In this document: positions 20,428-26,907 of the stretch, piece by piece | Position numbering within the stretch: position 1 is the stretch's first letter | How the letters are laid out: each line of letters starts with the position of its first letter | Source: a virus | DNA length: 32,902 nucleotides | Virus record (IMG/VR): IMGVR_UViG_3300032050_000497 | Coordinates: 1-32,902 of that record | Strand: one strand, 5' to 3' | Program-made: the position numbers and the translations under genes | Notes under the pieces: generated by a model | What the model saw: the letters and a program-made list of their open reading frames with translations, nothing else | Told to the model about the DNA's origin: nothing | Database searches by the model: none

Positions 20428-20787
20428 ATGATTCAAACACATAAATTAGTAGTAATTCCTGTTGATGGTATTGTCGTTACAGACCAAGAAGGTTTATCAG
20501 AGTTAGACTTATCTCAATGTGGAATACCAGATAATATACATGCATTACAATGGAATAATCCCATTTGGCCAGATAAACAAAATTCCCATCTAAATGGATT
20601 GCAATATGGCCAAGGATCTGGTTGGTTAGAATTTAGATCGACCGATCCTAATGAAAATATAACTGAATTACCACAATGGGCTATCAACTGTTATGATGTA
20701 TGGTTGCAAGCATATAATATAAAACAAGCTGCACTAGCGGCATCAGATGCTGCTGATGAAGCCGCAGCTGCAGCAGAAAACAATTAA
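20428..20787 (+). CDS. Hypothetical protein, 119 aa (possible fibre assembly factor)
   Basis: A beta-rich N-terminal part (HKLVVIPVDGIVVTDQEG, LDLSQCGIPDNIHALQWNN) and a GSGWLEFRSTDPNENITELP region end in an Ala-rich amphipathic helix (AALAASDAADEAAAAAENN). Position just after the fibre tips suggests a tail fibre assembly or chaperone role, but no motif proves it. AAAGG precedes the ATG. Confidence 0.55.
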   Translation: MIQTHKLVVIPVDGIVVTDQEGLSELDLSQCGIPDNIHALQWNNPIWPDKQNSHLNGLQYGQGSGWLEFRSTDPNENITELPQWAINCYDVWLQAYNIKQAALAASDAADEAAAAAENN

Positions 20788-20806
20788 ATTAAAAAGTGAT
20801 TATATT

Positions 20807-21967
20807 ATGAATAAATCATTAACTGAAAATAATTATATCTATATTCCCAACTTCATTAGTGAAGCCGCTGCAAAAGTCATGGCTTCCAACTTCAAAAGTC
20901 ACTGTAAACAAAATGAGGTTCAAGGAGACAATCAAGCTCCAAATTCTTCAGCGGAATATAATTTCATAGACTTTTTAGAAATGCTATGTGATAAAGTACC
21001 AACGGTGAGCACAATTATAGGTGAAACCGTTTTACCAACATATAGTTATGCTAGAGTGTATAAAGATGGTAGTGTTTTGGAAAGACATAGGGATAGAGAT
21101 GCTTGCGAAATAAGTTTAACTGTACATTTAGATGGTGATGAAGATTGGCCAATTTATATTGAAACTCCTGATGGTAATGAAGTTGAATTGATTCTAAAAC
21201 CAGGTGATGCAATGCTTTATTTGGGATGTGTTGCTGATCATTGGAGAAATCAATTTTTAGGTAAAGAATATGTTCAGGTATTTTTACATTATGTAAGAAG
21301 TAGAGGTGATAAAGCTTATACTTATTTTGATAAGAAAAAAGATTCTCCAATCAAAAAAGAAGAAAGTGTGAAACAAGAAAAAACAACACCAGTTAAAATA
21401 AACTCCAAAAATAAAATATCAGATTTCATTCAAATTTATGAAGATATTATTCCCTACTCACTATGTGATGAAATTATAAATGAGTATAAGAATGATGATA
21501 ATTGGTGTCTTGCTGGAGTAGGATACGAGGAAATGAATTTAAATGCTAGAAATGTAAATACAATTCCTATTTCACACGAAAATACAATTTTAAAAAATCC
21601 CGAAATAAGAAAACTTTTAGATGATAGACTTTATAAAGTTGCAAATGAGGTCATTAGAAAATATAATGATATTTTCCCACTAAGTCAAATAGAAGAAGAT
21701 TCTGGATATGATTTATTAAAGTATGAGGTAGGGCAATTTTACCGGCAACATACAGATTCATACAAAAAACATCCTAGAGCAGTGTCTTGTTCTTTCGCAC
21801 TAAATGATGATTTTGGAGGTGGAGAATTTGCTTTCTTTGATAGAGAGTTGATTTATAATTTAAAGAAAGGATCAGTAATCATGTTCCCTTCAAATTTTAT
21901 GTATCCACACGAAATCATGCCTGTAATCAAAGGCACTAGATATTCTATTATTACTTGGTTTGTTTAA
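20807..21967 (+). CDS. Fused double 2OG-Fe(II) oxygenase
   Basis: 386 residues with two oxygenase domains joined by a charged Lys/Glu linker (about 175-203). Domain 1: ERHRDRDACEISLTVHLDGD with H94 and D96 as the first two iron ligands, and H145 in VADHWRN as the third. Domain 2: QHTD (H315, D317), YPHEI (H368) and an Arg in GTRYSIITWF (R378), resembling prolyl-4-hydroxylase-type enzymes. Both sites appear complete. The substrate is unknown; such genes are often near fibre genes in aquatic phages. The frame runs 20 codons upstream, but the ATG at 20807 starts the conserved part. Its own ribosome site is poor. Confidence 0.8.
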   Translation: MNKSLTENNYIYIPNFISEAAAKVMASNFKSHCKQNEVQGDNQAPNSSAEYNFIDFLEMLCDKVPTVSTIIGETVLPTYSYARVYKDGSVLERHRDRDACEISLTVHLDGDEDWPIYIETPDGNEVELILKPGDAMLYLGCVADHWRNQFLGKEYVQVFLHYVRSRGDKAYTYFDKKKDSPIKKEESVKQEKTTPVKINSKNKISDFIQIYEDIIPYSLCDEIINEYKNDDNWCLAGVGYEEMNLNARNVNTIPISHENTILKNPEIRKLLDDRLYKVANEVIRKYNDIFPLSQIEEDSGYDLLKYEVGQFYRQHTDSYKKHPRAVSCSFALNDDFGGGEFAFFDRELIYNLKKGSVIMFPSNFMYPHEIMPVIKGTRYSIITWFV

Positions 21968-23673: not shown

Positions 23674-25080
23674 TTAGAAACTTAATTGACTTCTAAACAT
23701 AATTGCTTTTTCACCATTTACACGACTACCAGAACTACCAACTAATGCATCAAACTTTGTATCTACGTAGTTGAGCATGAAACGTAGATTGTCAGTGCAA
23801 AACCAAGTTAGACCGTATGTCATAGCAGTAGCACGATTTGACTTGCCTGTTGCAACGGATACATCACTTGCATCAAACTCACTCATACGTACACCAACCT
23901 GCCACGCACCACGACCACCTTTGTCGATTGGATTATTTGGTTTAATCCAACCAAACGCACCATCTTTGTATGCATGTGATTCGCCAGTTAAATTATAAAC
24001 TGCTTGTACATAGTACCCTTTGATTTCTTGGTCACTACCTGTTGCAGCATCATATTTAAAATTGAACTGTTCGCCTTGAACTTTGAAACCGTTATATGCA
24101 AACGCTGCTTCTAATCCTTGGCGTGTTCTTGTAGTAGCACCACTCAATGCGGAACCTGTAAACCAACCAGACTGCATACGAGATTCTGTTCTACCACTGG
24201 CTGGTGCAACGCCACTTTTAATTTCACCTGTGCTGTATGCTGCACCCAAGTGTGCAGTGTATGCTTTGCTGCCTGTTAGTTCAGCAATATTAGTTGTTAC
24301 ACGACCAATATAATCAAGTCCATCGAACTCTGCGCTCTTATTGGATTTGCCTCTACTTGCTGCTATAGCATATGTAAGGCCAGGTTTTGGCACACCATGT
24401 AACATGAAACCAGTTTCTTTTGCAGGAATAAATTCAGTATCATTCTGACCAATCAAACTACGTTCCATAAAATCTAGATTGTTTGAACTTGTCATTTGTT
24501 CAAGACTAAATGGCATCTTGAATAAGCCAAATTGAAATTGCATTTCTGGATTTGCTGCATAGTTTACCCACATCTCATCTGCTGTTGATGATGTAGAACT
24601 AAAGCCATCACTTGCACCAAAGTTTGCTAACAATTGATATTTGAAGTCTTTTGCAAATTGTCCACGAACACCAAATCTTGCACGGCGAACTTCGGCTAAG
24701 TTTTGATACGAATCCGTGGTTTGGCCGACACCATAATCTGGTGTGTATTGGCGATAGTCCATATGAATTCGACCTGTAAACTGTGCCGTATTGTTTCCAT
24801 CTTTGCTTTTGAGTCCGATTCCATTTTCTGTGACTGAACCATCGTTTGCTCTTGCTTGTCTGTATTTGACCGAATCACTAACATCTTTGTCGATTCTTTG
24901 TTCTGCAAACTTTTTGTTTTCTTCTTTTTCTTCATATGCATTGAGTTTTGATTCATATTCTTTTTGAGTGATTATATTCTTCTCTCTTAGAATATTCAAT
25001 GTATCTTTATACTCATCAGCATATGCAGGAATTACTGCTGCAAGTGCAACTACGATAGATAATTTTTTAAATAGTTTCAT
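23674..25080 (-). CDS. Phosphate-selective porin (OprO/OprP family)
   Basis: 468 residues. A signal peptide (MKLFKKLSIVVALAAVIPAYA, 21 residues) leads to a short coiled region (about 22-65), then a beta-barrel with the order typical of OprP-type porins (FTGRIHMDYRQY, RRARFGVRGQFAKDFKYQL, FGLFKMPFSLEQMTSSNNLD, FMERSL). It ends SQLSF with the terminal Phe needed for outer-membrane insertion. Families of this type form anion/phosphate channels; selectivity here is inferred from the neighbouring pstS. The start is 9 bases downstream of the pstS stop, with AAGGA, so the two are co-transcribed, and a terminator follows. Confidence 0.85.
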   Translation of the reverse strand: MKLFKKLSIVVALAAVIPAYADEYKDTLNILREKNIITQKEYESKLNAYEEKEENKKFAEQRIDKDVSDSVKYRQARANDGSVTENGIGLKSKDGNNTAQFTGRIHMDYRQYTPDYGVGQTTDSYQNLAEVRRARFGVRGQFAKDFKYQLLANFGASDGFSSTSSTADEMWVNYAANPEMQFQFGLFKMPFSLEQMTSSNNLDFMERSLIGQNDTEFIPAKETGFMLHGVPKPGLTYAIAASRGKSNKSAEFDGLDYIGRVTTNIAELTGSKAYTAHLGAAYSTGEIKSGVAPASGRTESRMQSGWFTGSALSGATTRTRQGLEAAFAYNGFKVQGEQFNFKYDAATGSDQEIKGYYVQAVYNLTGESHAYKDGAFGWIKPNNPIDKGGRGAWQVGVRMSEFDASDVSVATGKSNRATAMTYGLTWFCTDNLRFMLNYVDTKFDALVGSSGSRVNGEKAIMFRSQLSF

Positions 25081-25089
25081 AATTTATCC

Positions 25090-26112
25090 TTATTTCCAAA
25101 TTGGGTTGTTGTCAGGACCTTTTAAGTCTTTTTTCCAATTGTCCTGATTTAATTTAATAACTGATTGTGGTAAATGAACATATTCTAGTTCTTCACTCAT
25201 CTTGGCACCATTCTTCCAACTCCAATCAAAGAATTTCAAAACTGCACGACCTGTCAAACTATCTGCTTGTTGTTTGTGCATGAGAATGAAACTTGCGCCT
25301 GTTGCTGGCCATGCTTCTTTACCTGTTTGCCATGTGAGCAACAAATACATTCCTGGTGCATTAGCCCAATCTGCGTTTGCTGCTGCGGCTTTGAATGAAT
25401 CGTCACTTGGTTGTACAAAAACACCATCACGATTTTTTAATTGTGCGTGTGCAATTTTATTTCTTTTTGCATATGCATATTCTACATAGCCAAATGCACC
25501 TTTGATTCTTTGTACTTGAACAGCAACACCTTCATTACCTTTACCACCTACACCAACTGGCCATTTTACTGCTGTGCCTTCGCCAACAGTTTTTGCAAAA
25601 TCAGCGTTTGCTTTACCTAAAAAGTTTGTCCAAATAAATGTAGTGCCTGAACCATCTGCACGATGAACAACTGTGATTGCTAATGCTGGTAGATTGACGC
25701 CAGGATTCAAATCAACAATTGCTTTATCGTTCCACTTTGTGATTTTACCAAGATGAATGTTTGCAATAACTTCTGGTGTTAATTTTAATTGACCTGCTGC
25801 TACACCGTCAAGATTGAATACTGGTACTACACCGCCAATTACTGCTGGAAATTGCACTAGACCTTCTTTGTCTAATTCTTCAGGCTTCAATGGCATATCA
25901 CTTGCACCAAAGTCAACTGTTTTTGCTTTGATTTGTTTGATACCACCACCAGAACCGATTGATTGATAATTCAGACCAATGCCAGTGGATGCTTTATATG
26001 CTTCTGCCCACTTAGCATAGATTGGAAATGGAAAAGTCGCACCAGCGCCAGTTAATTCTGCTGCGGATGCGACTCCTGTAAATAACAATAAAGATAAAAG
26101 TAACTTTCTCAT
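25090..26112 (-). CDS. pstS: Periplasmic phosphate-binding protein PstS
   Basis: 340 residues. A signal peptide (MRKLLLSLLLFTGVASA) leads to a PstS domain with the phosphate ligand blocks TFPFP (26-30), GSGGG (S54), ASDMP (D72) and HRADGSGTTF (R151, S155, G156, T157). PstS hands phosphate to the host PstCAB transporter; those partners are absent here. The frame extends 13 codons upstream, but AGGAG lies before the ATG at 26112 and the signal peptide starts there. The upstream gap carries Pho-box-like repeats and a hairpin, and the porin gene follows in the same unit. Confidence 0.95.
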   Translation of the reverse strand: MRKLLLSLLLFTGVASAAELTGAGATFPFPIYAKWAEAYKASTGIGLNYQSIGSGGGIKQIKAKTVDFGASDMPLKPEELDKEGLVQFPAVIGGVVPVFNLDGVAAGQLKLTPEVIANIHLGKITKWNDKAIVDLNPGVNLPALAITVVHRADGSGTTFIWTNFLGKANADFAKTVGEGTAVKWPVGVGGKGNEGVAVQVQRIKGAFGYVEYAYAKRNKIAHAQLKNRDGVFVQPSDDSFKAAAANADWANAPGMYLLLTWQTGKEAWPATGASFILMHKQQADSLTGRAVLKFFDWSWKNGAKMSEELEYVHLPQSVIKLNQDNWKKDLKGPDNNPIWK

Positions 26113-26128
26113 GATTTCTCCTATAAGA

Positions 26129-26146
26129 ATTGTGCCTTTGCACAAT
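26129..26146. promoter_or_regulatory. Hairpin in the pstS leader
   Basis: Perfect inverted repeat ATTGTGC/GCACAAT with a 4-base loop, 16 bases before the pstS start and just upstream of its ribosome site. Possible operator or RNA hairpin controlling pstS; no T run follows, so it is not a normal terminator. Confidence 0.45.
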
Positions 26147-26183
26147 ATCACACTTATCTATGAAATCATGATCCTTAAACGGG

Positions 26184-26213
26184 ATTGTAACAAAACCGTC
26201 ATCGGATTGTCAT
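26184..26213 (-). promoter_or_regulatory. Possible pstS promoter overlapping the Pho-box-like repeats
   Basis: On the minus strand a -35-like ATGACA (26208-26213) and a -10 TACAAT (26184-26189) are spaced 18 bases. Transcription would start about 70 bases before the pstS ATG and include the leader hairpin. Confidence 0.45.
26185..26213 (+). promoter_or_regulatory. Triple Pho-box-like direct repeat upstream of pstS
   Basis: Three 7-mers TTGTAAC (26185-26191), CCGTCAT (26196-26202) and TTGTCAT (26207-26213) are spaced exactly 11 bp start to start, the layout of PhoB half-sites (consensus CTGTCAT). A fourth, degenerate unit CTTAAAC lies at 26174-26180 in phase. The repeats read on the plus strand, whereas pstS is on the minus strand, so they are inverted relative to classical pst promoters. 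A minus-strand promoter (ATGACA, 18 bases, TACAAT; -10 at 26184-26189) overlaps them. Confidence 0.6.
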
Positions 26214-26220
26214 AAATCAA

Positions 26221-26907
26221 TTAATACATATTTGGAGGATCTACTTTCCATTCATATCCTTCGGGAACTGGATTCCAATTATTGGTATCTTTTTTCCATG
26301 CAAAACCAATACCCCAATCGTTAGAAGTTTCAATCACGTTTGCTTCAACAGCCCATTCATCTTTATTTAAATTTCTCATGAATACTTTTGGACCAGGATG
26401 ATATGCTGTATCATGAAGTCCAACAATTCCATTTTTTCCTAAAATGTTTGTGTATTCCCAATCTTTTAAACATTGATTAACGCTGTGCCACCCGTCGATG
26501 AAAATAAAGTCAAATTCTTTTCTAGTTGCTCCACATTTTTCAAAAATTTGATTTATTATTTTCATATTTTCTTCATAGTTGGAACTATCACCTCTTATAA
26601 CATGAATATTTTCTTCTTCATTGTTTAGATATTCTCTATCATCTATATCTATTCCAATATAGATAGTTTCTTTTTTCTTATTTTTCAACAACACTTGTGT
26701 AAATGAATTTTCTCCATTTCTATTGACTCCGATTTCAAGTATAGCGGAACAATTTTCAGAAACTCTCAAAAATCTATCTCTTAAGACCATTCTATTCGCT
26801 TCAGTTACCTCAGCCCAACCCCTAAATTCTATTCTTGGATCTCCATCACTATCATCCCAAGGTGTAAGATATCTAATATCTTTTATTAAATCATTTTTCC
26901 ATTTCAT
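26221..26907 (-). CDS. SAM-dependent methyltransferase, class I
   Basis: 228 residues. Motif I region ILEIGVNRNG (about 56-65), then YIGIDIDD (83-90) binding the cofactor ribose, and FDFIFIDGWHSVNQCLKDWE with a second acidic block (IFIDGWH), then GIVGLHDTAYH. This resembles the Methyltransf_24 / cephalosporin-hydroxylase-like group, whose members act on sugars or small molecules. A GTG lies one codon upstream; the ATG at 26907 has AAGGAG at good spacing. It follows nrdB by about 14 bases. Confidence 0.8.
   Translation of the reverse strand: MKWKNDLIKDIRYLTPWDDSDGDPRIEFRGWAEVTEANRMVLRDRFLRVSENCSAILEIGVNRNGENSFTQVLLKNKKKETIYIGIDIDDREYLNNEEENIHVIRGDSSNYEENMKIINQIFEKCGATRKEFDFIFIDGWHSVNQCLKDWEYTNILGKNGIVGLHDTAYHPGPKVFMRNLNKDEWAVEANVIETSNDWGIGFAWKKDTNNWNPVPEGYEWKVDPPNMY

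Follow-up and report, generated by a model that had tools for sequence, protein, structure and literature searches.

What is the purpose of an array of PhoB-type half-sites ahead of a viral pstS gene when every half-site points away from that gene? The question is raised by a 32,902-base record of a freshwater bacteriophage whose replication genes (RNR, thymidylate synthase and primase) are T4-like; we analysed this record over its full length and refer to it as the window. Its minus strand carries a methyltransferase-like gene (26221-26907), then pstS (25090-26112; a phosphate-binding protein of 340 residues, Pfam PF12849, phrog_5385 phosphate transporter subunit), which starts with the ATG at 26112 behind the Shine-Dalgarno sequence GGAG (26118-26121), and, 9 bp after pstS, a gene for a phosphate-selective porin O/P (23674-25080; Pfam PF07396), with which pstS presumably forms one operon. 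A further stretch, 20747-21967, encodes a two-part protein matching PHROGs labelled ferrochelatase and 2OG-Fe(II) oxygenase and is likely an auxiliary gene. The repeat array sits inside the 108-bp gap ahead of pstS. PhoB is the model tandem activator, binding head-to-tail, with its direction set by contact with RNA polymerase; in canonical PhoB promoters the box overlaps the -35 element and ends 10 bp before the -10 element, and the polarity is thought to be fixed by contact with sigma.

Direct reading of the plus strand yields, at an exact 11-bp period, the 7-mers TTGTCAT (unit 1, 26207-26213; ATGACAA in the sense of pstS and farthest from that gene), CCGTCAT (unit 2, 26196-26202) and TTGTAAC (unit 3, 26185-26191), followed in phase by a weak unit 4, CTTAAAC (26174-26180), and confirms the spacing and the coordinates (26174-26213) given in an earlier sequence-only reading of this DNA. 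A PhoB box comprises two or more CTGTCAT-type 7-bp units at an 11-bp period, and this is what the array displays; pstS is transcribed leftward, and the half-sites point away from it. For scoring, we used a PhoB matrix trained solely on bacterial pstS promoters (50 distinct boxes), without phage boxes, and taken, as a stand-in for that of the host, from the nearest cellular relatives of the phage PstS (Oxalobacteraceae, other Burkholderiales or Nitrosomonadales; best identity 77%). The top 18-mer of both strands of the window is then 26185-26202 with 16.1 bits (runner-up 7.0), close to the value of 16.4 that marks the 5th percentile among the bacterial boxes, and thus a member at the weak end of their range. 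Read forward as a PhoB box, the same DNA scores -6.7, and this candidate was rejected.

The two-unit score by itself is not extreme (18.6 versus a shuffle 95th percentile of 18.1), so that the case is carried by the third unit and by conservation. The three-unit array 26185-26213 attains 25.6, which exceeds each of 200 whole-window Markov shuffles (maximum 20.3, median 9.3), and hence scores like the boxes of the nearest-relative group and above background. Unit 4 contributes about -1.5 bits, that is, no gain over background, and draws its support from conservation in phase (RTTTAAR in the sense of pstS). Across 11 related phage records (~1.26 Mb in total), a strict two-unit pattern occurs at pstS in 7 and only once elsewhere. 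That one match lies at 102932-102948 in the record of L035 (G008). The weight-matrix test thereby upholds the assignment of PhoB half-sites made in the sequence-only reading, and in our judgement the repeats are very probably PhoB sites.

The orientation is shared widely. A set of 294 usable viral loci, many of them from the same contigs, reduced to 63 distinct sequences upstream of pstS, which divide into 24 with a forward box, 33 with a reversed box and 6 without a clear box. The reversed class consists of 24 compact two-unit promoters (R2) and nine four-unit promoters of the window type (R4), to which a pattern search added L406 as a tenth R4 member. Scores of these 33 sites range from 6.8 to 18.6 in the reversed direction versus -9.3 to 1.9 in the forward direction. 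The reversed orientation noticed earlier in the window alone turns out to be common to 33 of the 63 distinct pstS promoters. In R2 promoters, the box lies ~55 bp ahead of the ATG and is preceded by an A tract; its base changes, when the box is read in the reversed direction, are those that PhoB tolerates, with C/A at position 5 and C/T at positions 1-2 in the second unit, while in the first unit positions 1-2 are loose, matching the bacterial matrix. Each of the 24 forward boxes, including those of L027, L041 and L053, stands exactly 10 bp before (T/C)TAAAT, and in the forward class a host PhoB site seems to have been joined to a late promoter of the phage. In two related phage genomes, NTAAATA ranks with the most strongly enriched pre-gene motifs, TAAATAT occurring 11 times versus 0.8 expected in one of them. 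At L014-like loci, in the region ~60-110 bp ahead of pstS, the reversed two-unit promoters mostly come after a late-promoter-like motif, ACTAAATATAAAG, and a hairpin, so that late transcription would pass over the PhoB site.

Within the R4 group, homology sets in with unit 1, a few bases beyond the stop codon that ends the upstream gene (7 bp in the window), and identity is 18-42% upstream versus 48-98% in the array; for the window and L025 the values are 26% and 93%. Six different genes are found upstream: the methyltransferase of the window, nrdB, and four with labels read from sequence alone (cytochrome-c-like, small ORF, IscA-like and epimerase-like). The four units start 52, 41, 30 and 19 bp upstream of an invariant ATAGATA (26155-26161, minus strand in the window), and L081, the core of which has largely diverged, retains three units in unchanged register with this reference point, one of them being a better-matching half-site (GTTTCAG in the sense of pstS) at the exact position of unit 4. 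ATAGATA itself fits neither a phage late promoter (NTAAATA) nor a sigma70 -10 element (TAnnnT), and both readings were rejected. The window combines a phage-borne pstS with a linked PhoB-type site, as expected for a phage pstS under control of host PhoB, and in our judgement the array very probably belongs to pstS.

The arrangement is not that of a canonical PhoB promoter: the box faces away from the gene, is not followed by a -10 element at 10 bp and, in the sense of pstS, ends well before the -10 that we prefer. The explanation we favour, at slightly better than even odds, is that a reversed array for host PhoB belongs to the pstS-porin operon and most likely activates a leftward pstS promoter. 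The preferred candidate promoter is the extended -10 sequence TGATATTGT (26142-26150, minus strand), which in the window lacks a good -35 element, consistent with the need for an activator. Phosphorylated host PhoB would bind units 1-3 and, cooperatively, unit 4 as head-to-tail dimers, and would most likely activate from a class-I-like position, given that the array spans about -78 to -39 relative to the presumed downstream start and thus ends ~39 bp before it. Contact would be made via the C-terminal domain of the RNA polymerase alpha subunit. Taken on its own, activation in reverse appears to us more probable than not, even though E. coli PhoB overlaps the -35 element and contacts sigma (PMC3348028), which counts against it.

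Occlusion is the explanation to be weighed most carefully against activation. A second, sigma70-like promoter is embedded in the array (26184-26213, minus strand), with ATGACA (26213-26208) followed after 18 bp by the extended -10 sequence TGTTACAAT (26192-26184); it is formed by units 1 and 3 read leftward. PhoB bound to the array might then block this promoter, resulting in repression or in a switch to the downstream start. Both TGTTACAAT and the downstream TGATATTGT are kept in eight of the nine R4 promoters, and TACAGT is frequent as a -10 element in bacterial pstS promoters. An inverted repeat, TTGTGC-AAAG-GCACAA (26130-26145, minus strand), is located just upstream of the Shine-Dalgarno sequence of pstS. 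It is conserved: its two arms change in a compensating way in L039 (TTGTAC..GTACAA), and L081 has a repeat of different sequence. If the repeat acts as a hairpin at the 5' end of the mRNA, as it would in the forward class, transcription has to start further upstream, which argues for the embedded promoter. Short inverted repeats of varying sequence, with compensating changes, occur right before the Shine-Dalgarno sequence in the pstS leaders of many relatives. Against occlusion, an RTKACA placed 18 bp before TACARN arises of necessity in every reversed PhoB array with an 11-bp period, and the boxes are kept where the embedded promoter is absent, namely in L081 and in most two-unit reversed promoters. 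L081 in fact lacks both extended -10 motifs and has a -10-like CATAAT close to the place of the downstream promoter, which is why we prefer the latter. Moreover, production of less pstS during starvation would make little biological sense. We regard occlusion as unlikely. The sequence-only reading had offered three roles for the array, that is, PhoB working in reverse, blocking or remodelling of the overlapping promoter, and antisense transcription of the methyltransferase gene; the first is now favoured, the second is still live owing to the embedded promoter, and the third finds no support (see below).

It is quite improbable that the array serves not PhoB but another regulator of the OmpR family, or one encoded by the phage, with an 11-bp site of the TTACA type. 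Such a regulator is suggested by TGTTACA arrays of 3-6 units, which stand before strong promoters of non-phosphate genes in unrelated, mostly marine phages. The marine arrays, however, repeat TTACA, whereas TGACA and TTACA alternate here, as do TGTCA and TGTAA in bacterial PhoB boxes; moreover, the genes linked to the array are pstS and a phosphate porin, and in relatives pstS itself is preceded by plain forward PhoB boxes. TGTTACA units are arranged head-to-tail with an 11-bp period before sigma70-like promoters, sometimes with two arrays per contig (L415, L418, L419, L429, L430, L443, L447, L448, L463 and others).

Bacterial pstS promoters follow a regular plan, consisting of a 7-bp unit, 4 bp, a second 7-bp unit and, after exactly 10 bp, a -10 element such as TACAGT or TAGACT. 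Reversed boxes upstream of pstS do exist in the bacterial relatives, and the phage array might accordingly be a non-functional relic of a divergent box of this kind, or the product of chance. However, TAnnnT follows at 10 bp in every one of the 33 reversed boxes found near bacterial pstS, as nearly always does a large divergent gene where the contig extends far enough; the phage boxes have neither, and the idea that they copy the bacterial divergent box was rejected on these grounds. By the same token, the bacterial set offers no precedent for activation by a reversed box, which counts against the explanation we favour. Given also the matrix score, the conservation and the presence of reversed types in 33 distinct promoters, there is little to recommend a relic or chance. 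At Undibacterium-type loci such as L088, L094 and L105, one PhoB promoter serves pstS and another a divergent gene of ~700 codons, the boxes being directed away from each other at a nearly fixed spacing. A search of 8 bacterial genomes for reversed boxes before codirectional genes gave no clean precedent, gene calls being ambiguous in GC-rich DNA. Finally, although half-sites that point rightward would, in a forward PhoB promoter, direct transcription to the right, antisense transcription of the methyltransferase gene is most improbable, because not one of the 33 reversed phage boxes is followed on its own strand by TAnnnT at 10 bp, the gene upstream of R4 arrays is codirectional with pstS rather than divergent, and this gene is not conserved, five others replacing the methyltransferase in relatives that keep the array.

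Reversed activation by PhoB also has to be viewed against the history of the gene. Phage PstS proteins form one clade (support 100) beside bacterial PstS, and on a quick PstS tree the state of the promoter, forward or reversed, changes 11 times, a count that recombination within pstS could inflate; the starred branches alone require 5 or more changes of the forward label. Closely related PstS proteins may have unlike promoters, as in the pairs L049 (reversed) and L327 (forward), and L218 (reversed) and L058 (forward). Because promoter types swap repeatedly on the tree, the promoters look like interchangeable cassettes, which fits an equivalent use. It is tempting to speculate, with the chances falling slightly short of even, that this group of phages evolved tandem PhoB dimers that are reversed and yet still activating, and exchanged them with canonical promoters before the same gene. 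If this is true, PhoB polarity is not obligatory. With one gene standing behind either orientation, the sister phages provide a matched set of natural promoters for testing whether the direction of PhoB matters. A captured nutrient gene would have been wired by phages to what is probably the starvation signal of the host, with the wiring swapped as a module.

With canonical PhoB promoters of the E. coli phoA/pstS type, the array shares 7-bp half-sites, 4-bp spacers, the 11-bp period, the kind of recognition sequence and the link to a phosphate-uptake gene; it differs in facing away from the gene, in being located upstream of the presumed -35 position and in having no -10 element at 10 bp. The forward-box promoters of the sister freshwater phages (24 distinct) have the same gene, the same PstS clade and PhoB-type half-sites, but their boxes are set at the fixed 10-bp distance from (T/C)TAAAT, which doubles as the phage late-promoter motif. 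A Pho box positioned upstream of the -35 element has a functional counterpart in the pdtA/phdA promoters of P. aeruginosa, that of pdtA requiring the box for activity; these promoters depend on the ECF sigma factor VreI, and the accessible part of that report describes no reversed box (PMC4971064). Control of phage pstS by host PhoBR has been reported for marine cyanophages (P-SSM2 and others, cited in PMC10976474), which likewise combine a phage-borne pstS with putative host PhoB sites; unlike in the window, those sites have the cyanobacterial specificity PyTTAAPyPy and belong to a different phage group (PMC10976474). In silico Pho-box calls proved unreliable in a cyanophage, not all of the boxes being bound (PMC10976474), and the same caution applies to the array of the window. 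The literature searched describes no reversed, cassette-like architecture for cyanophage pstS and, covering few subscription papers, yielded nothing on reversed or oriented Pho boxes in general, which is weak evidence of absence. Hence, while control of a phage pstS by host PhoB is known, the reversed geometry common to a group of phages appears to be new.
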